37,900 nucleotides of DNA from Bacillota bacterium (GTDB lineage: Bacteria; Bacillota; Sulfobacillia; JAJZYS01; JAJZLH01). The notes beneath the pieces were generated by a model. It saw nothing but the letters and a program-made list of their open reading frames with translations. It did no database searches and was not told where the DNA came from. Every line of letters starts with the position of its first letter. The stretch's first letter is position 1. The stretch is from contig JAKAUI010000056.1 in assembly GCA_021827745.1 (NCBI GenBank), positions 1 through 37,900 of the forward strand. The letters are read 5' to 3'. Both the position numbers and the translations under genes were made by a program. This document shows, piece by piece, positions 4,606 to 24,674 of the stretch.

Positions 4606-4964
4606 CCAGACGGGTCCGGCTGCAGCGGCTGCCCGGCAAAGAGGAGATCCTCGGCCAGGTGGCGTTGGCGGACACATTCTGGACCAGATTCCAGGGCTGG
4701 ATGGGGCGGAGTACGATTGGGCCGCAAGACGCCCTGCTGCTGCTCCGGACGCCTGCCATCCACACTTGGTTCATGCGCCGGCCGATCGACGTGGTGATCT
4801 TGTCGAAGAACGGCGAGGTGCTGGCGGTGCGGGCGTCGGTTGTGCCCTGGCGGATGCTGAGCCCCATGGCAGGAGCCGGCCATGCCCTGGAGCTCGGCGC
4901 TGGCGGTGCCGAGCGGCTGTCGATCAGGGTGGGAGACCGCCTGGGCTGGGAGCCAGACCCGTAG
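4602..4964 (+). CDS. DUF192 family protein
   Basis: A 120-residue protein of the DUF192 family (PF02643), whose biochemical role is not established. Family hallmarks are visible: an early FQGWMGR segment, then [15 protein letters not shown], where the family usually has a His/Met-rich strand followed by IDVVFLD, and a late ALELGAG strand. It starts with the ATG of an ATGA overlap with gyrA, so it is probably cotranscribed and translationally coupled. Many family members carry a signal peptide. This one does not, so it should be cytoplasmic. Confidence 0.85.
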
Positions 4965-5056
4965 CCTTCTGGCGGCGCCAGGACAGGGCGGCGGCCGGGT
5001 GCGGATGTGCTAGCATGGGGGCGATGAAAGATCGGTCCCAAGGGGAGATTCACGAC

Positions 5057-5941
5057 GTGAGCGAACAGGGGACGTTTCGAGTCAAGGCTGGGCTGGCCGA
5101 GATGCTCAAGGGCGGCGTGATCATGGACGTCACGACGGCCGAACAGGCCGTCATCGCCGAGCGGGCCGGGGCCTGTGCGGTGATGGCGCTCGAGCGCGTG
5201 CCGGCCGACATCAGGGCCGCCGGCGGAGTGGCCCGGATGGCCGATCCGGTCAAGGTCAAGGAGATCATGGCCGCCGTCACCATACCGGTGATGGCCAAGG
5301 TGCGCATCGGCCACTTCGTGGAGGCCCAGATCCTGCAGGCGCTGGCCGTCGACTATATCGACGAGAGCGAAGTCCTGACTCCGGCCGACGACACCCATCA
5401 CATCGACAAATGGCCGTTCACCATCCCCTTCGTCTGCGGGGCGAGAAACCTGGGCGAGGCCCTGCGCCGGATCGCTGAGGGCGCAGCCATGATCCGGACC
5501 AAGGGCGAGCCGGGAACCGGCAACGTGGTGGAGGCGGTCCGCCACCAGCGCCTGATGCAGCAGGAGATCCGCAAGACGGCCAACACGCCAGAGGACGAGC
5601 TTGCGGTGTGGGCGAAGGAGCTGGGAGCGCCGCTGGACCTGGTCAAGGCGGTTCACGACAGCGGCAAGCTGCCGGTGGTCAACTTTGCGGCCGGCGGCAT
5701 CTCCACCCCCGCTGACGCCGCCCTGATGATGCAGCTTGGTTCGGACGGCATCTTCGTCGGATCCGGCGTGTTCAAGTCGCAGGATCCGGAGGCCACCGCC
5801 CGGGCCGTGGTGCGGGCCACCACCCACTATCAGGATGCGGCCGTGCTGGCCGAGGTTTCGGAGGACCTGGGCGAGCCAATGCGCGGCCTGGAGATCTCAC
5901 AGCTCCTGCCCGCCGACCGGATGCAGGATCGCAGTCGGTGA
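5057..5941 (+). CDS. pdxS: Pyridoxal 5'-phosphate synthase lyase subunit PdxS
   Basis: The synthase subunit of the DXP-independent PLP pathway. It builds PLP from ribose 5-phosphate, glyceraldehyde 3-phosphate and ammonia supplied by PdxT. At 294 residues it has the family's standard length. Asp24, Lys81 and Lys149 fall at the same numbers as the catalytic residues of the B. subtilis enzyme ([23 protein letters not shown]). I chose the GTG at 5057, nine bases after AGGGGAG, because it gives the normal N-terminus ([19 protein letters not shown]). An in-frame ATG at 5024 would add 11 residues. A possible -10 (TAGCAT) lies just before that ATG. The stop overlaps pdxT (GTGA). Confidence 0.98.
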
Positions 5942-6495
5942 GAGTTGGCGTCCTGGCCCTGCAGGGGGCCTTTCGCGAGCACATGGCGACCTTGGCCCGA
6001 CTTGGTGTGGAGGGCCGGGAGGTCCGTCGGGCGGATGACCTGGACGGTGTGCAGGGGCTGATCCTGCCCGGCGGCGAGTCCACCACCATCGGCATGCTGA
6101 TGGCCGAATACGGGCTGGAAGACGCCCTCAAGCAGGGCAGCCTGCCGATGTTCGGTACCTGCGCCGGCATGATCGTCTTGGCCCAGGAGATCGTGGGGTC
6201 CACCCAGCCGCGCCTTGGGCTGATGGACATGACAGTCGATCGCAACCACTACGGCCGCCAGCGCGAGAGCTTCGAGACCGAAGTGGCGGTCAGCGGGCTG
6301 GAGCACCAGGTGCGGGGTGTGTTCATCCGGGCCCCGGTCGTCACCCGCACCGGTCCCGGAGTCGAGATCCTAGCCCGGCATGACGGCGAGATCGTGGTCT
6401 GCTCAGAGGGCCGCTGCCTGGCGTCTGCCTTCCACCCAGAACTGACGGACGACACCCAGCTCCATCGCCTGTTTCTGGACCGCTTCGTCGGCTAG
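5938..6495 (+). CDS. pdxT: Pyridoxal 5'-phosphate synthase glutaminase subunit PdxT
   Basis: Class I glutamine amidotransferase (185 residues) that hydrolyses glutamine and channels ammonia to PdxS. The catalytic triad is visible: Cys75 in FGTCAGMI, and His166 and Glu168 in FHPELTDD. The oxyanion-type GGES segment lies at residues 45-48. The GTG start at 5938 overlaps the pdxS stop by four bases, so the two subunits are translationally coupled. This fits the 12+12 complex they form. No separate promoter is apparent. Confidence 0.98.
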
Positions 6496-9653: not shown

Positions 9654-9741
9654 GGAGGGGTGGCCGAGTGGCCGAAGGCGGCGGTCTTGAAAACCGCTAG
9701 GGTGAAAGCCCTCGTGGGTTCGAATCCCACTCCCTCCGCCA
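9654..9741 (+). tRNA. tRNA-Ser(UGA)
   Basis: A class II tRNA with a long variable arm. The anticodon loop CTTGAAA between GCGGT and ACCGC gives anticodon TGA. The acceptor arm GGAGGGG pairs with TCCCTCC, the discriminator is G, and CCA is encoded. It starts five bases after the serS stop with no visible promoter of its own. Confidence 0.97.
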
Positions 9742-9836
9742 GCCAGTTGAAAACGGAACTCTGATCGTTTGGCGTATCGGCTGCACGGCAACGCATCGCG
9801 CGCTGACAGTACACCACGCACCGATGCGGTCTTGGC

Positions 9837-10214
9837 TTAGCTCGCCCTTGGCGCGCGCATGAGCGGTAGGTCCAGTTGCACATGGTCGTACATGACCTTC
9901 GGCGTGATCCGGCCGCGCGCACCGCGCTCGAGACACACCAAACCGTATCCTTCCATGGTCCTGAGTGTGCGCGACAGGTTCGACTTGGCCTTTCCTGTAA
10001 TGCGTGCCAGCTCATCGAGCGAGCCGGGTGCCCTTGCCGCGATGACGCGTAGCAGATCGCGATTGCCGGCTGAGAGAACCTTGGCAAACGACTCGGTCGA
10101 GGGGAACCAGACCTTCGGTTCGCTGCCTTCGATGCGACGCTCGCCGCGTGCCACGGCCATGGTTCGTGCCTCCATGTCCTCGTGGCTGGCGATGCCAACT
10201 TTCAACGTGGTCAT
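9837..10214 (-). CDS. Antitoxin-type HTH regulator (COG4190 / HVO_A0114-like)
   Basis: A 125-residue protein with a MarR/ArsR-like winged helix in its second half: LDELARITGKAKSNLSRTLR, then TMEGYGLVCLERGARGRI. The N-terminal part (VWFPSTESFAKVLSAGNRDL) matches the COG4190 predicted regulators often annotated as antitoxins. The ATG at 10214 is seven bases after GGAG and overlaps the upstream gene's stop (ATGA). The partner resembles the TumE toxin family, and toxin-first order is usual for this type. Expected role: neutralise the toxin and repress the operon. Confidence 0.85.
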   Translation of the reverse strand: MTTLKVGIASHEDMEARTMAVARGERRIEGSEPKVWFPSTESFAKVLSAGNRDLLRVIAARAPGSLDELARITGKAKSNLSRTLRTMEGYGLVCLERGARGRITPKVMYDHVQLDLPLMRAPRAS

Positions 10215-10561
10215 GGGATCACTCCTCTCTCTCGCAGCACGGCATCCACCATCGTCCAGAAGTCGGAGACCAGGGTGACGGCGTCCAGATAGGTGTAGGG
10301 TCGGACCGGTTGCAATCGGTGACATGGTCCTGCGGGCCGCCCCGCTCCTGTCGAGCAACCAGGATGGGCGTTGTCCAACCCGACTAGTCGACGGCCCCCA
10401 GGCCCGTGCAACGTGAGTGAGGAGTCGATGCCATGCGGCTTCTCATGTGACACTGGCACCTGTGGCATGACGAACCGGACCCAATGGTCACCCTGAGGGT
10501 CCACTACGAGAACCTGCCCGTCGCGGTCGAGAAGGACATAGAGGGTCTGATCGCGCGGCAT
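10211..10561 (-). CDS. TumE-family (DUF6516) toxin-like protein
   Basis: A 116-residue protein. Hallmarks I associate with DUF6516/TumE are RRLVGLDNAHP in the middle, a following His (PCHRLQPVRPY), and a closing DAVTLVSDFWTMVDAVLRERG helix. The toxic activity of the family is not something I can read from the sequence. ATG 10561 has no ribosome site. A TATGAT box lies about 13-18 bases upstream of it, so the transcript may be leaderless or nearly so. It is the first gene of a two-gene operon with the antitoxin. Confidence 0.75.
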   Translation of the reverse strand: MPRDQTLYVLLDRDGQVLVVDPQGDHWVRFVMPQVPVSHEKPHGIDSSLTLHGPGGRRLVGLDNAHPGCSTGAGRPAGPCHRLQPVRPYTYLDAVTLVSDFWTMVDAVLRERGVIP

Positions 10562-10872
10562 TCCGACGGCATCGTGTTATCATACTAAAGCAACAAAGGC
10601 AAACGAGTGGTGCCCATGATTTCAGCGGCATTGACACATACACCGTCGGCCGAGGAAAGCGATCCCTACTGCCTCTCTGACACGGCGGACCAAAAAGTAT
10701 GGACCACAGCATCTGGCGTGCGCCGCACCCTCTTGCACCCGGGTCTGGCGACCTGCCAGTCGCTTTGCGGGCATGGCGCTGTGGGGTAGACGGAAATCGC
10801 GCGATGTCCAAACAGGCGGTGTCAGGTCAATCCTCGAACTAGGGTCTGACCGAGGCGAAAGGGGCGACCGGC
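10562..10872. other. Gene-poor interval between the toxin pair and the acyl-CoA synthetase gene
   Basis: I see no recognisable gene in these 311 bases. Open frames on both strands (a 60-codon plus-strand frame at 10607-10789 and a minus-strand frame reaching 10811) have no start signals or familiar motifs. The composition looks less GC-rich near 10570-10700 than the flanks. It may hold a decayed remnant. The minus-strand TATGAT for the toxin operon lies at its left end. Confidence 0.5.
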
Positions 10873-12441
10873 ATGGAGATGGCGCAGACCCCGATCCGAT
10901 TTCTGACTGAGAGCGAGCGCCTGTTTGCGGATAAGGAAGCGGTCGTCTGCAAGGACGTTCGCCTGACGTATCGCCAGTTTGGACAAAGGGTGCGCAAGAT
11001 GGCCGGGGCGCTTTCGGCTCTGGGCGTGGGGAAAGGCGATCGGGTGGCCTATCTGGGGCTGAACTGCCACCGACTGGTCGAGCTTTACTACGCCGTCCCC
11101 GGACTTGGCGCCATCTTGAGCCCGCTGAACGTCCGCCTCACCCAGCCGGAACTCGAGTTCATCCTGGGCGATCTGGAGGCGAGACTCCTGATCACGGACA
11201 GCACCCTGGCGCCGCTAGCGGCCAAGCTGGAGCCGACGGTCAAGGGCCAGGTGATCTGCCTGGACCACGGCCAGGTGCCGGCCAACTGGCTCGACTATGA
11301 ACGCCTTCTGGCCGAGGCCGAGCCTGTGGCAGAGATCGGTCACAACGTCGACGAATCGGACGTGGCCGAGGTCTTCTACACGTCTGGTACGACCGGGCGG
11401 CCCAAGGGCGTGATGCTCACGCACCGCAACCTGCACCAGCACGCTGTATCTGTCGCCGTCTCGCTTCCGGTGCACGCGACAGAGGTCCAGCTGGTCGGCA
11501 CGGTGCCGTTGTTTCACGTCAACGGCTGGGGGGCGCCGCACTACATCGTGGCCATGGGAGCCACCCAGGTCGTGACATCGCGCTTTGACCCCACGGAGTT
11601 CTTCCGATTGGTCCGCTCCGAGCGGGTGACGTTGGCGATGATGGTTCCCAGTATGCTGGCCGCGCTGCTCAGCCTCGCCCCCGAACACAAGGGGGACACC
11701 GAGTCGCTCGAGCACATCATGATCGGTGGCGCGCCGCCGCCGCCGACCCTGATCCGGGCAGCCAGAAAAGAGCTGGGCGTGCGCTGCACCGTTGGCTACG
11801 GCCTGTCCGAAACGAGCCCCGTGCTGACCATCGCCACCATCAAGCCGGACCTGATGCATCTTCCCGCTGAGGCCCAGGACGCGCTGCGGGCCCGGACCGG
11901 GATTCCGATTTTGGGCGTCTCGGTTCGGGTCATGGATCCAGACGGCCATGAGGTGGCCTGGGACGATCAGTCGATCGGGGAGATCTGGGCCCGAGCCGAC
12001 AGCATCAGCCCCGGCTACTGGCGGCGTCCCGAGGAAACGGCAGAGGTGTTTGTGGACGGCTGGTTTCACACCGGCGACATGGCCGTGGTGAACAAGGAGG
12101 GCTATCTGCAGATCGTCGATCGCAAGAAGGACATCATCATCAGCGGCGGCGAGAACATCAGCTCGGTCGAGGTGGAAAACGCGCTGTACAGTCATCCGGC
12201 AGTGTTTGAGGCAGCGGTGGTGGCCATTCCGGACGAGAAGTGGGGCGAGGTGCCGTACGCATTCGTGGCGCTCAAGCCCCAGATGGCAGCGTCGGCGGAG
12301 GATCTGCTCGCCCACTTGCGCACCCAACTCGCTGGCTTCAAGATTCCAAAGGGCATCGAGTTTCGTGCCGAGCTGCCCAAGACCGGGACCGGCAAGGTGA
12401 TGAAACAGGAGCTGCGCCGGCCGTTCTGGCCGGGGCGCTGA
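10873..12441 (+). CDS. AMP-dependent acyl-CoA synthetase (fatty acid-CoA ligase)
   Basis: A 522-residue member of the ANL superfamily that activates a carboxylic acid as acyl-AMP and then acyl-CoA. Motifs in order: phosphate-binding YTSGTTGRPKG at 169-179, GYGLSETSPV mid-protein, the hinge GWFHTGDMAVVNKEGYLQIV with DRKKDIIISGGENISSVEVE, and PKTGTGK with catalytic Lys508. The length and motifs suit medium/long-chain fatty acyl-CoA synthetases. Substrate length cannot be read. The ATG start at 10873 follows AAAGGGG. The next gene, a membrane protein, is 27 bases downstream and may be in the same operon. Confidence 0.93.
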   Translation: MEMAQTPIRFLTESERLFADKEAVVCKDVRLTYRQFGQRVRKMAGALSALGVGKGDRVAYLGLNCHRLVELYYAVPGLGAILSPLNVRLTQPELEFILGDLEARLLITDSTLAPLAAKLEPTVKGQVICLDHGQVPANWLDYERLLAEAEPVAEIGHNVDESDVAEVFYTSGTTGRPKGVMLTHRNLHQHAVSVAVSLPVHATEVQLVGTVPLFHVNGWGAPHYIVAMGATQVVTSRFDPTEFFRLVRSERVTLAMMVPSMLAALLSLAPEHKGDTESLEHIMIGGAPPPPTLIRAARKELGVRCTVGYGLSETSPVLTIATIKPDLMHLPAEAQDALRARTGIPILGVSVRVMDPDGHEVAWDDQSIGEIWARADSISPGYWRRPEETAEVFVDGWFHTGDMAVVNKEGYLQIVDRKKDIIISGGENISSVEVENALYSHPAVFEAAVVAIPDEKWGEVPYAFVALKPQMAASAEDLLAHLRTQLAGFKIPKGIEFRAELPKTGTGKVMKQELRRPFWPGR

Positions 12442-12468
12442 AGAGGACGGCATCCGAGGAGGCGCGCC

Positions 12469-13275
12469 GTGGGGCAGTTGAGCTTCGGCCAGGTTCTCGA
12501 CGCGACCTGGGCCATCTACCGCAAGGGTTTCGTCAGCTTCGTGGCGGTCGGGCTGCTCAGTCAGGTGCCCTACGCCATCTTGGTGGCGCTCACCGGCGTG
12601 GCCGTGGGCGGACGTTCGGCCGTTGCCGCCCTGGCCCTGGTTGCGGTGTTTGCCTTCCTGGCAGGCGTCCTTCTCCAGGCAGCCTCGATCCGGCTGGCCC
12701 ATTCCTTCTATGAAGGCAAGCCGGTGTCGGCCCTTGACGCCGTGCGCCAGGTCGGGCCGGTCCTCCTGCCGCTTGTCCTCTTGACCGTCCTGCTCGGCCT
12801 CGGGACAAGCCTGCTCACGCTCCTGCTCATCATTCCCGGCTTCATCTTCTACTTCCGCTTCGTGCTCGCCATCCCCGGACTGGTGATCGGCCGCGACACG
12901 GTGTGGAGCTCGTTCGGAGACGCCTGGAGAATGTCGAAGGGTGCCTTCTGGCGCATCCTTGGAGCCAGCGTCATCTTCTCCCTGGCCATCGCCGTTGTCG
13001 ACGGCCTGATCAGCCTGGTCGCCGGCAAGGCCGGGCTGTCCGGAACACAGCAGGCGGCCTACCTACTGGCGCCCACCATCGGACGCTTCTTCGCCGCCCT
13101 CGGCCCCGGCCTCGTCGCCGGGGCTGTGCTCAGCGCGCTGACCGGTTCGGTGATCCCGATCCTGCTCACCGTCCTCTACCATGACCGCCGCGCCGCCCAG
13201 AACCCGGATCTAGAGACGGCTGCCGTCTTGACGGAGCCTTCTGGAGAGTCACACGGTCGGACCGAGACCCGCTGA
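12469..13275 (+). CDS. Polytopic membrane protein, YciC / GDPD-membrane-domain-like
   Basis: A 268-residue protein with about six hydrophobic segments. The layout (GQVLDATWAIYRKGFVSFV at the N-terminus, a central VLLPLVLLTVLLGLG then IIPGFIFYFRFVLAIPGLVI, and SSFGDAWRMSKGAFWRI after it) resembles the membrane domain next to glycerophosphodiester phosphodiesterases and the YciC/DUF975 group. No catalytic residues are visible and the function is unknown. The GTG start at 12469 is six bases after AGGAGG. The hydrophilic C-tail (about 30 residues) should be cytoplasmic. Confidence 0.75.
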   Translation: MGQLSFGQVLDATWAIYRKGFVSFVAVGLLSQVPYAILVALTGVAVGGRSAVAALALVAVFAFLAGVLLQAASIRLAHSFYEGKPVSALDAVRQVGPVLLPLVLLTVLLGLGTSLLTLLLIIPGFIFYFRFVLAIPGLVIGRDTVWSSFGDAWRMSKGAFWRILGASVIFSLAIAVVDGLISLVAGKAGLSGTQQAAYLLAPTIGRFFAALGPGLVAGAVLSALTGSVIPILLTVLYHDRRAAQNPDLETAAVLTEPSGESHGRTETR

Positions 13276-13344
13276 CGCACAAGCAGAGCAGCCTCGTTTG
13301 CGCCTTGGCTGCACTTTTCCTGGCCATCGCCGTCCGACCTTGGG

Positions 13345-13350
13345 TATAAT
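13345..13350 (+). promoter_or_regulatory. -10 element before tRNA-Ser(GCU)
   Basis: A perfect TATAAT, 12 bases before the tRNA, with no good -35. The position suits a tRNA promoter with a very short leader. Confidence 0.6.
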
Positions 13351-13362
13351 GAGACACCCTGC

Positions 13363-13456
13363 GGAGGGATACCCAAGTGGCTGAAGGGGCGGTCCTGCTA
13401 AGACTGTAGGGGGCACAAAATGCCCCGCGAGGGTTCAAATCCCTCTCCCTCCGCCA
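13363..13456 (+). tRNA. tRNA-Ser(GCU)
   Basis: A class II tRNA with a long variable arm. The anticodon loop CTGCTAA gives GCT, reading AGC/AGU. The acceptor GGAGGGA pairs fully with TCCCTCC, and CCA is encoded. Confidence 0.97.
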
Positions 13457-13469
13457 GCCACCACCCCGA

Positions 13470-13491
13470 CCCGCCCCCGCCCAGGGGCGGG
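13470..13491 (+). terminator. GC-rich hairpin after tRNA-Ser(GCU)
   Basis: CCCGCCCC (13470-13477) pairs perfectly with GGGGCGGG (13484-13491). No T run follows. It probably ends the tRNA-Ser transcript before the next promoter. Confidence 0.5.
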
Positions 13492-13513
13492 CCGTGAAAT
13501 CCGAAGGCAATTG

Positions 13514-13522
13514 TGCTATCCT
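13514..13522 (+). promoter_or_regulatory. Extended -10 promoter of the tRNA-Arg/tadA transcript
   Basis: TGcTATCCT, an extended -10, 12 bases before tRNA-Arg(ACG). No clear -35. Confidence 0.5.
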
Positions 13523-13533
13523 TACGGCCGAAA

Positions 13534-13609
13534 GCGCCCATAGCTCAGCGGATAGAGCGCGTGGCTACGGACCACGAGGCCGAGGGTTCAAATCCTTCTG
13601 GGCGCGCCA
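13534..13609 (+). tRNA. tRNA-Arg(ACG)
   Basis: The anticodon loop CTACGGA between CGTGG and CCACG gives ACG. The acceptor GCGCCCA pairs with TGGGCGC, and CCA is encoded. A34 of this tRNA is the normal target of TadA, which makes inosine so that CGU, CGC and CGA are read. tadA lies 88 bases further on. Confidence 0.97.
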
Positions 13610-13615
13610 AGCTTC

Positions 13616-13694
13616 GCCCCTGTAGCTCAGGTGGATAGAGCGGGGGTTTCCTAAACCCTGTCTGCCGGGGGTTCGAGTCCCTCCAGGGGCGCCA
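13616..13694 (+). tRNA. tRNA-Arg(CCU)
   Basis: The anticodon loop TTCCTAA gives CCT, reading AGG. The acceptor GCCCCTG pairs with CAGGGGC, and CCA is encoded. Six bases after tRNA-Arg(ACG) and three before the tadA frame, so all three are likely on one transcript. Confidence 0.95.
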
Positions 13695-13697
13695 ATA

Positions 13698-14162
13698 TTG
13701 GAGGGGGCCGGCACGCACAGTCACTTCCTGCGGCAGGCCCTGGCCGAAGCGGAGGCCGCCCTGGCGATGGGCGAGGTGCCGGTGGGCGCCGTTGTGGTGC
13801 TGGGCGGCGAGGTGATCGCCCGGGCGCACAACCTGAGGGAGACGCTGCATGACCCGACGGCCCACGCCGAGATGCTGGCGCTGCGCCAGGCGGCGGCCAA
13901 TCTCCAGGACTGGCGACTGTCCGAGGCCAGCCTCTACGTCACGCTCGAGCCGTGCCTGATGTGTGCGGCGGCGATCGCAGAGAGCCGTTTGCGGCGGGTG
14001 GTGTTCTCGGCCTACGATCCGGAGAGGGGTGCTCTGGGCTCTCGCCACCATGTGCTCGGCCAAGGCCCAGAAAGCCGGCGGACAGAAGTGCTGGGAGGCC
14101 TGTTGGAGGAGGAAGCGAGCGCTCTCTTGAAGAGGTTTTTCCTGTCGAGGAGGGATGTCTGA
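13698..14162 (+). CDS. tadA: tRNA-specific adenosine deaminase TadA
   Basis: A zinc deaminase that converts A34 of tRNA-Arg(ACG) to inosine. The CDA-fold motif is complete: His56-Ala-Glu58 (proton shuttle) and Pro85-Cys86-x-x-Cys89. The body starts at FLRQALAEAEAALAMGEVPV, as in other TadA proteins. The start is awkward. The only conventional candidate is TTG 13698, three bases after the CCA of tRNA-Arg(CCU), with no site in front. A GGAGGGGG at 13700-13707 would instead fit an unusual ACG codon at 13713. The last 14 bases, including the stop, lie inside tRNA-Ser(CGA). The gene sits where B. subtilis has yaaJ (tadA), just before SRP RNA and dnaX. Confidence 0.93.
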   Translation: MEGAGTHSHFLRQALAEAEAALAMGEVPVGAVVVLGGEVIARAHNLRETLHDPTAHAEMLALRQAAANLQDWRLSEASLYVTLEPCLMCAAAIAESRLRRVVFSAYDPERGALGSRHHVLGQGPESRRTEVLGGLLEEEASALLKRFFLSRRDV

Positions 14163-14242
14163 GCGGTTGAAAGAGCCGCACTCGAAATGCGGTAGGCGGG
14201 CACAAACTCGCCTCGTGGGTTCGAATCCCACTCCCTCCGCCA
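14149..14242 (+). tRNA. tRNA-Ser(CGA)
   Basis: A class II tRNA. The anticodon loop CTCGAAA between CCGCA and TGCGG gives CGA, reading UCG. The acceptor GGAGGGA pairs with TCCCTCC, and CCA is encoded. Its first 14 bases also encode the last four codons and stop of tadA. Confidence 0.96.
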
Positions 14243-14252
14243 TAAGTGTTTC

Positions 14253-14346
14253 GGAGAGGTGTCCGAGTGGTTGAAGGAGGATGTCTGGAAAGCATCCAGG
14301 CGGGCTAAAACCTGCCTCGTGGGTTCGAATCCCACCCTCTCCGCCA
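14253..14346 (+). tRNA. tRNA-Ser(GGA)
   Basis: A class II tRNA with a long variable arm. The anticodon loop CTGGAAA gives GGA, reading UCC/UCU. The acceptor GGAGAGG pairs with CCTCTCC, and CCA is encoded. It completes the set of serine tRNAs in the window. Confidence 0.97.
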
Positions 14347-17049: not shown

Positions 17050-19068
<2,019 letters not shown>

Positions 19069-19227: not shown

Positions 19228-19329
19228 ATGGCGGCGAACTGGAGTGGAGCCAAGTACCTCCCGAACGCACCGGTCTCTGCCCACTTCGCGCGGCCATCAG
19301 CGGCGGCGGAGAGGAGAGGGGAGTTATGA
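19228..19329 (+). CDS. Small ORF translationally coupled to the transporter (33 aa)
   Basis: ATG 19228 follows a very strong GAGGAGGAGG. It encodes 33 residues (MAANWSGAKYLPNAPVSAHF, then an Ala/Arg/Glu-rich tail). The TGA overlaps the transporter's ATG as ATGA. An inverted repeat, CTGATGGC (19225-19232) with GCCATCAG (19293-19300), could hide the small ORF's start codon. The product resembles nothing I know. It may be a leader peptide whose translation opens the transporter's start, or a chance frame. Confidence 0.45.
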   Translation: MAANWSGAKYLPNAPVSAHFARPSAAAERRGEL

Positions 19330-20711
19330 GCGTGGCAGGTTCGCACGACCAGGGATCGACGCTGAATGTCCTCAAGTCATTCGATGAGGCCAAGATGCAG
19401 GGATTCCACTGGCGGACGGTGTTCACCGCCGGCATGGGATTTTTCACCGACGCCTACGACCTCTTCATCATCGGTACCGTAACGGCCATCCTGACCCCGA
19501 TCTGGGGGCTGACCACGGGCAATATCGCCATCCTGAACAGCACGTCCCTGGCCGCTGCGGCGCTGGGGGCGCTTTTTTTCGGGAGGCTGATGGACCGCTT
19601 CGGCCGCAAGGCCATGTATGGCGTCGAGATGACAATGCTCACGTTCGGCGCCATTTTGTGTGCATTCGCTCCGTCGTTCGGCTGGCTGGTGGCCTTTAGG
19701 GTGCTGGTCGGATTTGGCGTCGGCGGCGACTATCCCACCAGTTCCGTGCTGATGAGCGAGTACTCGAACCGTACCAACCGCGGGCTGCTCGTCACCATGG
19801 TCTTCGCCATGCAGGGGCTCGGTCTTCTGATCGGACCGTTGGTGGCGGCCGCCCTCTTGTCCACCAGCATGCCGCACGAGATCGTGTGGCGGGTGATGCT
19901 GGGACTGGGCGCCATCCCTGCCGCCTCCGTCATCTATCTGCGCCGCAAGATGGCGGAAACGCCCCGCTACCTGGCCGTGGTCAAAGGCGACATGGCCAAG
20001 GCCGGAGCCGTGGTCAGCTCGCTGACCAACACGGCGGTGGAGCGGGCCAAGGTGACCACCCAGAAGGTCGTTCGTCAGACCTGGAACAAGAGAAACCTGA
20101 TCCGACTGATCGGCACGGCCGGCAGCTGGTTCCTGCTTGACATCGCCTTCTATGGAAACGGCGTCTCCTCGCAGCTGATCCTGAAGGCGCTCTTGCCCGG
20201 CGCCGCGCTCGTCACCACCACGCTGGTGGCGGCGGCCATCTTCCTGATCGCCGCCATTCCCGGCTACCTGGTGGCCGCCAAGTACATGGACAAGCTGGGG
20301 CGAAAGGCCATCCAGCTGGTCGGCTTCGTGATCATGGCCCTGGCCTACGGCGCTCTCTTTTTGGCGCCCGGCATCGCCAAGCTGCCCATCTTGTTCCTGA
20401 TCATCTACGGCGTGAGCTACTTCTTCATCGAGTTCGGGCCGAACACCACCACCTTCATCGTGCCGGCGGAGGTGTTCCCGACCAACCTGCGCGGCAGCGG
20501 CCACGGCATGTCGGCGGCGGCCGGCAAGGTCGGCGCCTTCCTGGGCGCCTTCTTCCTGCCGGTCATCCTGGCGGCGAGCGGCCTGCCCTTCACCATGGGC
20601 CTCCTGGCCGGGGTCGCCCTCCTGGGCGTGCTCTTGACCGCCCTTATCCTTCCCGAGATGCGCGGACACTCGCTGGACGAGACGGAGGAGTTCGCACCCG
20701 CCACCACCTAG
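19326..20711 (+). CDS. MFS transporter, PHS (phosphate:H+ symporter) family
   Basis: A 461-residue, 12-segment major facilitator. The N-terminal GMGFFTDAYDLFIIGTV and the GFGVGGDYPTSSVLMSEYSN loop are characteristic of the PHS family (Pho84-like). GRLMDRFGRKAMYG and YMDKLGRKAIQL are the paired MFS cytoplasmic loops. Late IEFGPNTTTFIVPAEVFPTN also fits. Inorganic phosphate is the likeliest substrate, supported by the Pho-box-like repeat upstream, though PHS relatives also carry organic acids. The ATG follows AGAGGAGAGGGG and overlaps the stop of a 33-codon ORF. Confidence 0.85.
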   Translation: MSVAGSHDQGSTLNVLKSFDEAKMQGFHWRTVFTAGMGFFTDAYDLFIIGTVTAILTPIWGLTTGNIAILNSTSLAAAALGALFFGRLMDRFGRKAMYGVEMTMLTFGAILCAFAPSFGWLVAFRVLVGFGVGGDYPTSSVLMSEYSNRTNRGLLVTMVFAMQGLGLLIGPLVAAALLSTSMPHEIVWRVMLGLGAIPAASVIYLRRKMAETPRYLAVVKGDMAKAGAVVSSLTNTAVERAKVTTQKVVRQTWNKRNLIRLIGTAGSWFLLDIAFYGNGVSSQLILKALLPGAALVTTTLVAAAIFLIAAIPGYLVAAKYMDKLGRKAIQLVGFVIMALAYGALFLAPGIAKLPILFLIIYGVSYFFIEFGPNTTTFIVPAEVFPTNLRGSGHGMSAAAGKVGAFLGAFFLPVILAASGLPFTMGLLAGVALLGVLLTALILPEMRGHSLDETEEFAPATT

Positions 20712-20737: not shown

Positions 20738-20768
20738 GGGCCCCGTCATGGACGGGGCCCTTCTTCTT
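20738..20768 (+). terminator. Rho-independent terminator of the transporter
   Basis: GGGCCCCGTC (20738-20747), loop ATG, GACGGGGCCC (20751-20760), then TTCTTCTT. The best intrinsic terminator in the window. Confidence 0.88.
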
Positions 20769-20771
20769 GGC

Positions 20772-20821
20772 TTGACAGGGCAACGGATGAGAAATACTAT
20801 CGCAGATGAGAATGATTATCA
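20772..20821 (+). promoter_or_regulatory. Promoter and tandem Fur-type boxes of the fur-permease operon
   Basis: TTGACA (20772-20777), 17 bases, TACTAT (20795-20800). Downstream, TGAGAAT-G-ATTATCA (20807-20821) matches the 7-1-7 Fur consensus TGATAATnATTATCA with one mismatch. A weaker copy, TGAGAAA-T-ACTATCG (20788-20802), overlaps the -10, exactly 19 bases earlier. It argues for autoregulation by the Fur-family protein. Confidence 0.8.
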
Positions 20822-20840
20822 GAACGAGGAGACGGCTGTG

Positions 20841-21293
20841 ATGGAAGAGCAGGCGAACATGGCCCTGGCGATGGAGCGGCTCCTGGCGCACGGCCACGCC
20901 GTCACCCCGCAGCGGCGCCTGGTGGTGGAGGCCCTGCGCGATGCTCCCGGACCGATCTCGGCGCAGGAGTTGAGCGCGGCCCTGGAGCCAAGCCGCGGCA
21001 TCGGGCAGATGACCGTCTACCGGACGCTCGCCCTGCTCCTCGATGCCGGCGTCGCCTATCAGGTGGCCACGGCAGACGCCGACCGCCAGGCTCGATACGT
21101 CTTCTGCTCGGGGAGCCACCACCATCACCTGGTCTGCCAGACCTGCCACACAGTGCTGGAGATCGCCGGCTGCGGCATGGAGACGGTCGACCACGAGGTC
21201 GAGCAGCGCACTGGCTTTGCAGCCGTCGGCCACCACCTGGACTTTGTCGGAACCTGCCCAGCCTGCGCCGCTCAAGGCAAAGGCGACCGCTAG
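20841..21293 (+). CDS. Fur-family metal-dependent regulator
   Basis: A 150-residue repressor. The N-terminal winged helix (TPQRRLVVEALRDAPGPISA, then IGQMTVYRTLALLLDAG) is followed by a His-rich sensing segment (GSHHHHLVC) and two structural CxxC pairs (Cys99/102, Cys139/142). ATG 20841 follows GAGGAG. The adjacent GTG 20838 is an alternative. The open frame continues up into the terminator but is not coding there. The operator resembles a Fur rather than a Zur (TCGTAAT) or PerR (TTATAAT) box, which favours iron, but metal choice is unproven. The permease starts three bases after the stop. Confidence 0.93.
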   Translation: MEEQANMALAMERLLAHGHAVTPQRRLVVEALRDAPGPISAQELSAALEPSRGIGQMTVYRTLALLLDAGVAYQVATADADRQARYVFCSGSHHHHLVCQTCHTVLEIAGCGMETVDHEVEQRTGFAAVGHHLDFVGTCPACAAQGKGDR

Positions 21294-21296
21294 GCC

Positions 21297-22202
21297 ATGC
21301 TGAATCTGTGGGATCCGCATCTTGGCCTGGCGCTCGGGGCTGTCCTGGTGACCGCCTTCTTGCTCGGGGTGGTCCACGGCGTCACGCCGGACGAGCACAC
21401 CTGGCCGATCACCTTCAGCTATGCGATCGGCAGCTACTCGACGAGACGGGGCATGATCGCTGGCCTCACCTTCTCCGCAGCCTTCACCCTGCAGCGGGCG
21501 ATCGCCAGCGAGCTCGCCTACCTCACGCTCGACAAGTGGTTCACGGCCAACGCCATGGTCGACTACATCGTCTATGTGGTGGTCGGCGCGGTCATGGTCT
21601 GGGCGGCCTGGCATCTGGCCGGCGGAAGGCACTGGCATCTGGGCCGCACCCACAAGATCAGAAACGATGAGCTCGACCCGCACCTGCAGGACCCCAGGCC
21701 CTGGATGCCGGCCGTGCACGGCTTCATCGCCGGATGGGGATTTGGGGCCTTCGCCGTGATCATCTACACCGTGCTCGCTCCGGCCATGCCGAGCGCCGTC
21801 TGGGGCTGGGTGCCGGGAGCGATGTTCGGGCTGGGCACCATGGCCATGCAGGTGGCCGCCGGCGGACTGTTCGGACTGATCAGCCAGCGCATGAAGCTGA
21901 CCCCTGAGATGATTCGGCAGGTGGCGCTGACGACCGCCGTCCGCACCCTAGGCTGGGGCGGAGCGGTGTTTGTCCTGGGCGGCGGGCTGGGCCTGGCCTT
22001 TCCAACGGTGGGCGCCTTCAAGGTGCCGACTGGGGTGCAGATCCACAACCTGGCCCACATCTCGCTCGGCACCGTGCTGGTGATGGTCTCGGTGCTGCTG
22101 ATCGGCATGGGCACCCTGATTCGAGAGACCCGGCACTGGTCCCGGGTGGCAAAGAGCCGATCAACCGCCACCAGCACGCCCTTTGGTGCCTCCGGCCGCT
22201 GA
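21297..22202 (+). CDS. NicO/UreH-like metal permease (putative)
   Basis: A 301-residue membrane protein with about seven hydrophobic segments. The first carries HGVTPDEH (His27, Asp32, His34), similar to the H-x4-D-H metal motif of NicO/UreH/RcnA transporters. A soluble His-rich loop (RHWHLGRTHKI) lies between segments, as in metal exporters. It is cotranscribed with the Fur-family regulator behind Fur-type boxes, so a role in iron, nickel or manganese handling is likely. I cannot tell importer from exporter, and the family match is by motif only. Confidence 0.65.
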   Translation: MLNLWDPHLGLALGAVLVTAFLLGVVHGVTPDEHTWPITFSYAIGSYSTRRGMIAGLTFSAAFTLQRAIASELAYLTLDKWFTANAMVDYIVYVVVGAVMVWAAWHLAGGRHWHLGRTHKIRNDELDPHLQDPRPWMPAVHGFIAGWGFGAFAVIIYTVLAPAMPSAVWGWVPGAMFGLGTMAMQVAAGGLFGLISQRMKLTPEMIRQVALTTAVRTLGWGGAVFVLGGGLGLAFPTVGAFKVPTGVQIHNLAHISLGTVLVMVSVLLIGMGTLIRETRHWSRVAKSRSTATSTPFGASGR

Positions 22203-24522: not shown

Positions 24523-24596
24523 TGGGGAGTGGTGTAACGGTAGCACACCAGGCTCTGGACCTGTGAGTGAGGGTTCGAATCCTTCCTCCCCAGCCA
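24523..24596 (+). tRNA. tRNA-Gln(CUG)
   Basis: The anticodon loop CTCTGGA gives CTG. The acceptor TGGGGAG pairs with CTCCCCA, and CCA is encoded. The outermost anticodon-stem pair appears to be a C-U mismatch, with the other four intact. Confidence 0.94.
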
Positions 24597-24598
24597 GC

Positions 24599-24674
24599 GG
24601 CCCAATCGTCTAGAGGCCAAGGACGCCGCGCTCTCAATGCGGTAACACGGGTTCGAATCCCGTTTGGGCTACCA
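24599..24674 (+). tRNA. tRNA-Glu(CUC)
   Basis: The anticodon loop CTCTCAA gives CTC. The acceptor GGCCCAA pairs with TTGGGCT, a G-U closing the end. The discriminator is A and CCA is encoded. Two bases after tRNA-Gln. Confidence 0.95.

Follow-up and report, generated by a model that had tools for sequence, protein, structure and literature searches.

We find in the window (the whole 37,900-nucleotide stretch of DNA analysed here) a well-conserved operon of two genes, the first encoding a Fur-family metalloregulator and the second a polytopic membrane permease. Its interest lies in the unnamed family to which the permease belongs, in an apparent exchange between that permease and ABC-3 importers, and in a switch of operator type. 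In the reading we prefer, to which we give a probability of roughly 0.5, the two genes would form a self-regulated metal importer operon in which the permease stands in for an importer of the ABC-3/ZnuA type, and the metal would most likely be zinc or manganese.

Regulator, operator boxes and permease

The features of the locus are collected in Table 1. Both genes, both boxes and the motifs HGVTPDEH and RHWHLGRTHKI lie where the initial annotation had placed them. Its description of tandem 7-1-7 boxes, one nearly perfect, that overlap or follow the promoter is borne out, as is its pairing of a Fur-family gene, with putative operators of its own, with a metal-type permease. The two genes share an orientation and are separated by 3 bp, from which we infer cotranscription. 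Upstream, the inverted repeat and the tract that follows it are probably the terminator of the MFS gene, which would set the operon apart.

Table 1. Features of the operon and its upstream flank (window coordinates)
Feature	Position	Strand	Remarks
MFS gene	19326-20711		Upstream of the operon; phosphate symporter-like, score under that model's cut-off
GC-rich inverted repeat GGGCCCCGTCATGGACGGGGCCC, then pyrimidine-rich tract	20738-20760	+	From sequence and coordinates
Predicted sigma-70-like promoter	20772-20800		TTGACA-17-TACTAT
-35-like TTGACA	20772-20777	+	From sequence; predicted
Upstream tandem box, TGAGAAATACTATCG	20788-20802	+	Overlaps -10; 10/14 matches to TGATAATNATTATCA
-10-like TACTAT	20795-20800	+	17-bp spacer after -35; predicted
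Downstream 7-1-7 box, TGAGAATGATTATCA	20807-20821	+	13/14 matches; near expected transcription start
Fur-family metalloregulator, 150 aa	20841-21293	+	PF01475, 1.2e-19; Zur-like sensor residues
Polytopic membrane permease, 301 aa	21297-22202	+	PF13386; signature HGxTPDEHTWPITFSY; HG at 141-142

The window belongs to a genome (G000) of 1.62 Mb in 64 contigs that is 96.8% complete; this genome and its two congeners (G001 and G002) are each about 97% complete. A gene for a membrane H+-pyrophosphatase (PF03030, 5.8e-265), at 17050-19068, precedes the Fur gene by two genes. The window also contains eight tRNA genes in two stretches (9654-14346 and 24523-24674), four of them tRNA-Ser and two tRNA-Arg.

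The two boxes are spaced 19 bp. On the + strand of the window just four 15-mers match TGATAATNATTATCA at 10 or more of 14 positions, and the operator pair is the sole 19-bp pair with a summed score of at least 21. When the 34-bp segment was shuffled 5,000 times, 0.36% of the shuffles reached the score of its weaker, upstream box. At one mismatch or fewer, the pattern TGANAATNATTNTCA occurs a single time in the 1.62 Mb genome, at the operon, while a control pattern gave no occurrence. The placement of the boxes over the -10 element and the start site suggests a repressor. All six loci that combine the permease with a Fur of the window's group, the window included, have a tandem pair spaced at exactly 19 bp, although in two of them (G002 and one of the two G008 loci) no single box meets the one-mismatch pattern. 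L010, a locus chosen for its box and with no Fur within its 2.4 kb, also has a 19-bp tandem pair. For these seven related permease loci and the five ABC-importer loci described below, the tandem pair was in each case reached by none of 300 shuffles. Among the 21 genomes searched, boxes with at most one mismatch stand directly upstream of the permease in G010, G011 and G008 (at one of its two loci); in G001 such a box precedes fur, and a second match is present. Some such box is found in 14 of the 21, many of them elsewhere in the genome, and the pattern is not unique outside G000.

The regulator scores 71.1 bits against PF01475, where the curated cut-off is 23.1, which places it in the Fur superfamily. 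It is the sole Fur detected in its genome, and in each of the two congeners likewise only one was detected. Its best relatives of known structure are 3mwm, which we take to be the Zur of Streptomyces coelicolor, 7vo0 and 2o03 (labelled a zinc uptake regulator in the search result). The group of six to which the regulator belongs is closer to 3mwm (2.4e-26) than to Nur, 3eyy (1.7e-18). Invariant in this group are Cys89, His93-96, Glu107, Cys111, His131 and four Cys of the structural site. With the Zur proteins 3mwm and 2o03 it shares the Fur fold, the four-Cys structural site, the HHHH run, the Glu and His of the second site and a 7-1-7 type of operator, and its Cys89 aligns to C79 of S. coelicolor Zur. 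Unlike them, it has Tyr at the position of Asp65, which is not conserved; C79 and D65 are presumably metal-site (regulatory) residues of that Zur. It further differs in the extra invariant Cys111 and His19 of its group, in having a PF13386 permease as partner, and in the one operator pair found in its genome. No NCBIfam Fur-family model reached its cut-off (PRK11639, Zur, gave 42.8 bits against 167), so we call the regulator Zur-like rather than Zur. A scan of viral contigs found no relative of it.

A Fur of the same group occurs in G014 (L188, G014:C6:15500-25500, at about 4675-6052) after a gene that we take to be aldolase-like, without the permease and without a tandem box. At L181 in G008 a similar aldolase-like gene is followed by permease and Fur; set beside L188, this points to a permease lost or gained at a single locus.

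The permease had been described as NicO/UreH-like. The UreH half of that label holds, in that the permease scores 37.7 bits against PF13386 (DsbD_2, presumably the former UreH_2 model; curated cut-off 24.9), and 27 of 60 family members match the same model at E up to 0.01. The NicO half does not: PF03824 gave no match to the window's permease at E up to 1, and none to the 60 members at E up to 0.01. The motif form HX4DEH resembles the HX4DH of NiCoT proteins. The permease differs from the UreH/HupE/NiCoT proteins in its missing PF03824 match, in lacking a solved relative by sequence and in its linkage to Fur genes.

Conservation was read from an alignment of 84 sequences, 60 of which were used in structure alignment A1. 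Six loci with in-frame stops (L013, L026, L029, L079, L089 and L094) were left out; they may be pseudogenes, frame breaks or assembly errors. His27, Asp32, Glu33 and His34, of the HGVTPDEH motif, are present in 83 of the 84 permeases, and this near-invariant His/Asp/Glu motif lies where the first predicted helix ends. His141 is found in all 84, Glu72 in 83 and His250 in 76. The RHWHLGRTHKI motif is less conserved (His112 in 76, His114 in 62 and His119 in 55 of 84). The window's permease has no Cys. Sequence searches found no relative of known structure for it, and its AlphaFold model, a confident one (pLDDT 86.9), had no clear match among PDB folds, with a best Foldseek E of 0.026 and a best VIA-align Z of 7.6. 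No relative was found among plasmids at E 1e-5.

Recurrence of the pairing and exchange with ABC-3 importers

The initial annotation held that Fur proteins seldom share an operon with a permease of this kind, which our survey contradicts. Relatives were retrieved by exact query peptides and the best 80 of 92 matches were kept, so that close relatives are over-represented; removal of the duplicates L001, L003, L004 and L005 left 90 distinct loci. Named relatives that carry this permease include, among the best 80 of 92 matches, Bacillota entries such as MAS3.bin149 as the nearest and Sulfobacillus benefaciens as a more distant one. In this set, which includes those 80 matches, 52 of the 90 loci, spread over five phylum-level groups, have a Fur gene no more than 300 bp from the permease. 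It is upstream on the same strand in 31 cases, downstream on the same strand in 11 and divergent in 10. Three further loci have a Fur gene beyond 300 bp, and where at least 700 bp is available on both sides, 47 of 75 loci have one within 300 bp.

By eye, the alignment of the linked Fur proteins divides into clearly distinct sequence groups: the Zur-like group of the window, a Sulfobacillus type, a Saccharibacteria type, and a type from Actinobacteria, Dormibacteria and Proteobacteria without the usual N-terminal part. Those of L032, L036, L039, L065, L078 and others start with MGR(R/K) and lack the TPQR helix region; in this MGR(R/K) group a Cys after the second metal site is invariant (17/17 aligned). 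Ten ORFs beside the permease in nine of the 35 Fur-less loci have no common family: they comprise a pirin, an ABC ATPase, an acetyltransferase, a DUF308 protein, one with a pilin-type signal, one weakly Ig-like and four without matches. Among the papers listed by our literature searches we saw no description of this pair, which is not proof of absence. Judged by gene neighbourhood, the pair is a conserved module that recurs across phyla.

Genomes of the window's order that lack the permease offer a comparison. In five of them (G005, G006, G007, G009 and G013) a Fur gene heads an operon of a binding protein, an ATPase and an ABC-3 permease, and in all five there are tandem boxes 18-19 bp apart. 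The binding protein is of the ZnuA family (PF01297, by profile scan in G005 and by tblastn in the others), and the ATPase was scanned with models in G009 only. As in a znuABC or mntABC operon of the ABC-3 type behind a Fur-type regulator, the regulator comes first and the importer stands behind; in the window, a single permease takes the place of binding protein, ATPase and ABC permease. The Fur of the sister operon in G009 is 32% identical to the window's regulator. Of the remaining two genomes, G012 has ABC-3 genes with no Fur detected, and G014 has neither ABC-3 genes nor the permease.

Clear ABC-3 matches (E<1e-30) were found in none of the 8 permease-bearing genomes of the order against 6 of the 7 that lack the permease (Fisher p=0.0014), and in the class in 1 of 12 against 13 of 29 (p=0.025). 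We set aside weak matches (E 1e-3 to 1e-6) as probable ABC permeases of other families, although most exceed Pfam's cut-off; when they are kept, the contrast becomes 3/8 against 6/7 in the order (p=0.08) and 5/12 against 16/29 in the class (p=0.33). Fifty permease genomes from elsewhere, for which there are no matched controls, include 4 with clear ABC-3 matches. Pooling gives 5/62 against 13/29 for clear matches (p=1e-4) and 14/62 against 16/29 with the weak ones (p=0.002), a comparison that mixes phyla and has no matched controls. All of these statistics treat genomes as independent, which they are not. The counts are modest and the class-level contrast is weak, and they suggest that the permease displaced the ABC-3 importer in the window's order. 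The simplest reading is that the permease would import the same metal as that importer.

Distribution of two operator types in the permease family

Leaders of many related permease loci contain a different box. The palindrome TGCAA-N5-TTGCA is present in 37 of 88 permease-locus leaders at one mismatch or fewer and in 53 at two or fewer, in a set that includes the best 80 of 92 matches and has near-identical loci among the 37 (L084, too short, and L049, which contains N, were dropped). The corresponding backgrounds are 1.45% and 7.2% in random windows of the same loci, and 1.0% and 12.2% in Markov shuffles. Spacers other than 5 were found in 0 to 4 of the 88 leaders at one mismatch. The box also occurs in eight leaders without a linked Fur. 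In the window itself no such palindrome is found at one mismatch or fewer, and thus no Nur-type operator; the window and its congener at L015 have TGAxAAT boxes instead, and L016 has a weaker pair. The window's operator is the less common type in the permease family.

In the permease tree, the window, L015 and L016 form a group (support 100) that is nested with L017, L021 and L028, all with TGCAA boxes (support 85, below the tool's star). The other TGAxAAT permeases (L010-L014) stand apart, on a long branch whose placement is unsure. The tree, a quick one with a midpoint root and a long-branch warning at L007 and L010-L014, requires three changes of label to place the TGAxAAT type, one of which depends on a weak site in L046. 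Since the window's group is nested among TGCAA permeases, an exchange of operator and regulator around a retained permease is probable and may have happened more than once; its direction hinges on the midpoint root.

Metal and direction of transport

Gene order, the boxes and their uniqueness in the genome, the conserved pairing and the two operator types are computational results; the counts suggest that the ABC importer was displaced and that operator and regulator changed hands, and we infer repression, the direction of transport and the metal. In the model we favour, a cell with enough metal would have the Fur-family protein bound to both boxes over the -10 element and the start site, and the bound regulator would silence both its own gene and that of the permease. 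As the metal becomes scarce, the regulator would release and the permease would bring metal in. Counter-evidence is the Fur of the window's group in G014, which has no adjoining permease or box. The low identity (32%) between the window's regulator and that of the sister operon and the unconserved Asp65 position also speak against it.

The cues to the metal conflict. The Zur-like regulator points to zinc, as does the best solved relative of the sister operons' binding protein, the zinc-uptake protein 2ov1. Manganese is favoured by the model scan of that binding protein, in which MntC ranks first (3.7e-16), closely followed by zinc AztC (3.5e-14), both short of their cut-offs, and by a Glu at the third ligand position in all five genomes, a feature of the manganese type. 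The sister ATPase is uninformative, as zinc AztA ties with unrelated ATPase models. The Nur-like box in many relatives points to nickel. With modest confidence we consider zinc or manganese import most likely: zinc would be slightly ahead, at somewhat under even odds, with manganese a possible choice, nickel unlikely and iron or cobalt more unlikely still.

A nickel permease family under Nur control, whose permease persisted in the window's lineage with a change of regulator alone, would account for the high frequency of the TGCAA box and for its spacer of exactly 5. We think this unlikely for the window. The TGCAA core may also resemble alphaproteobacterial Mur boxes. The window has neither a TGCAA box at one mismatch or fewer nor a regulator closest to Nur, which sets it apart from the Streptomyces Nur system, whose operator core many related permease loci share. 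The passages of PMC3919588 that describe the published Nur box give it as tTGCaa-N5-ttGCAA, with a core equal to TGCAA-N5-TTGCA, while those of PMC6956336 on the Mur box name it without giving its letters. Passages of two further sources fit the nickel reading, in that Nur represses nickel transport genes (PMC7055735) and UreH-type proteins are nickel transporters or candidates for that role (PMC2667541). The recurring neighbour of the permease, unlike that of UreH nickel transporters, is Fur, and none of the three nickel enzymes searched for (Ni-SOD, NiFe hydrogenase and urease) has a match in G000, G001 or G002.

Elsewhere nickel enzymes do accompany the permease. Ni-SOD is present in 20 and urease, over its cut-off, in 10 of 62 permease-bearing genomes (the window's genome, 11 class relatives and those of 50 of the best 80 loci). 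NiFe hydrogenase, searched in the window's genome and 40 relatives, has strong matches in G029 and G030, 2 of the 12 permease-bearing class members. We rejected Ni-SOD as proof of nickel: it occurs in 9 of 11 Saccharibacteria-like permease genomes, but within one family in 14 of 17 permease genomes against 53 of 76 others (p=0.23), and the association is a lineage effect. Taken as a whole, the 93 very small genomes of that Saccharibacteria-like family, the family of G083, include 67 with Ni-SOD (PF09055) and 17 with the permease. At the 16 Ni-SOD or urease loci examined, no TGCAA box was found at one mismatch or fewer.

A Fur-family protein could also control an exporter, and some Fur-family proteins activate exporters. 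Detoxification of this kind would suit metal-rich acid habitats, and the named hosts include Sulfobacillus benefaciens, Acidimicrobiales and Mizugakiibacter, groups of acidic or metal-rich sites. We nevertheless hold an exporter to be rather improbable, as boxes over the -10 element and the start site fit a metal-loaded repressor, which would turn the operon off in metal excess, and as the permease in the window's order tends to alternate with an ABC importer behind Fur and tandem boxes. Still less probable is an iron importer under a master iron regulator, for which the single Fur of the genome and a box close to the classical Fur box would speak: such a regulator should have several boxes, where the genome has one site at one mismatch or fewer, and the sensor site is Zur-like. 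A non-metal role, for instance as a thiol or redox membrane protein with incidental Fur adjacency, takes its cue from the name DsbD_2 of the sole Pfam match and is very improbable for a Cys-free permease with a near-invariant His/Asp/Glu motif at its first helix end and an adjoining Fur gene in 52 of 90 loci.

Returning to metal import, we put forward a wider proposal tentatively, at rather less than even odds. The HGxTPDEHTWPITFSY permeases would be a new class of single-protein divalent-metal importers. In bacteria from acidic sites they would have taken the place of ABC-3 importers, and they would have spread among phyla either together with several Fur subfamilies or by coming under their control. 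The window's lineage would have swapped a Nur-type for a Fur/Zur-type operator and regulator and kept the permease.

If the importer reading is right, a widespread, unnamed permease gains a testable function, the import of a scarce essential metal, and there is a possible explanation of how some bacteria live without a clear ABC importer for zinc or manganese. Two types of operator within a single permease family would offer a clean case in which to study how the DNA and metal specificity of Fur proteins changes, and regulator swaps on one transporter, if true, would provide a natural series.
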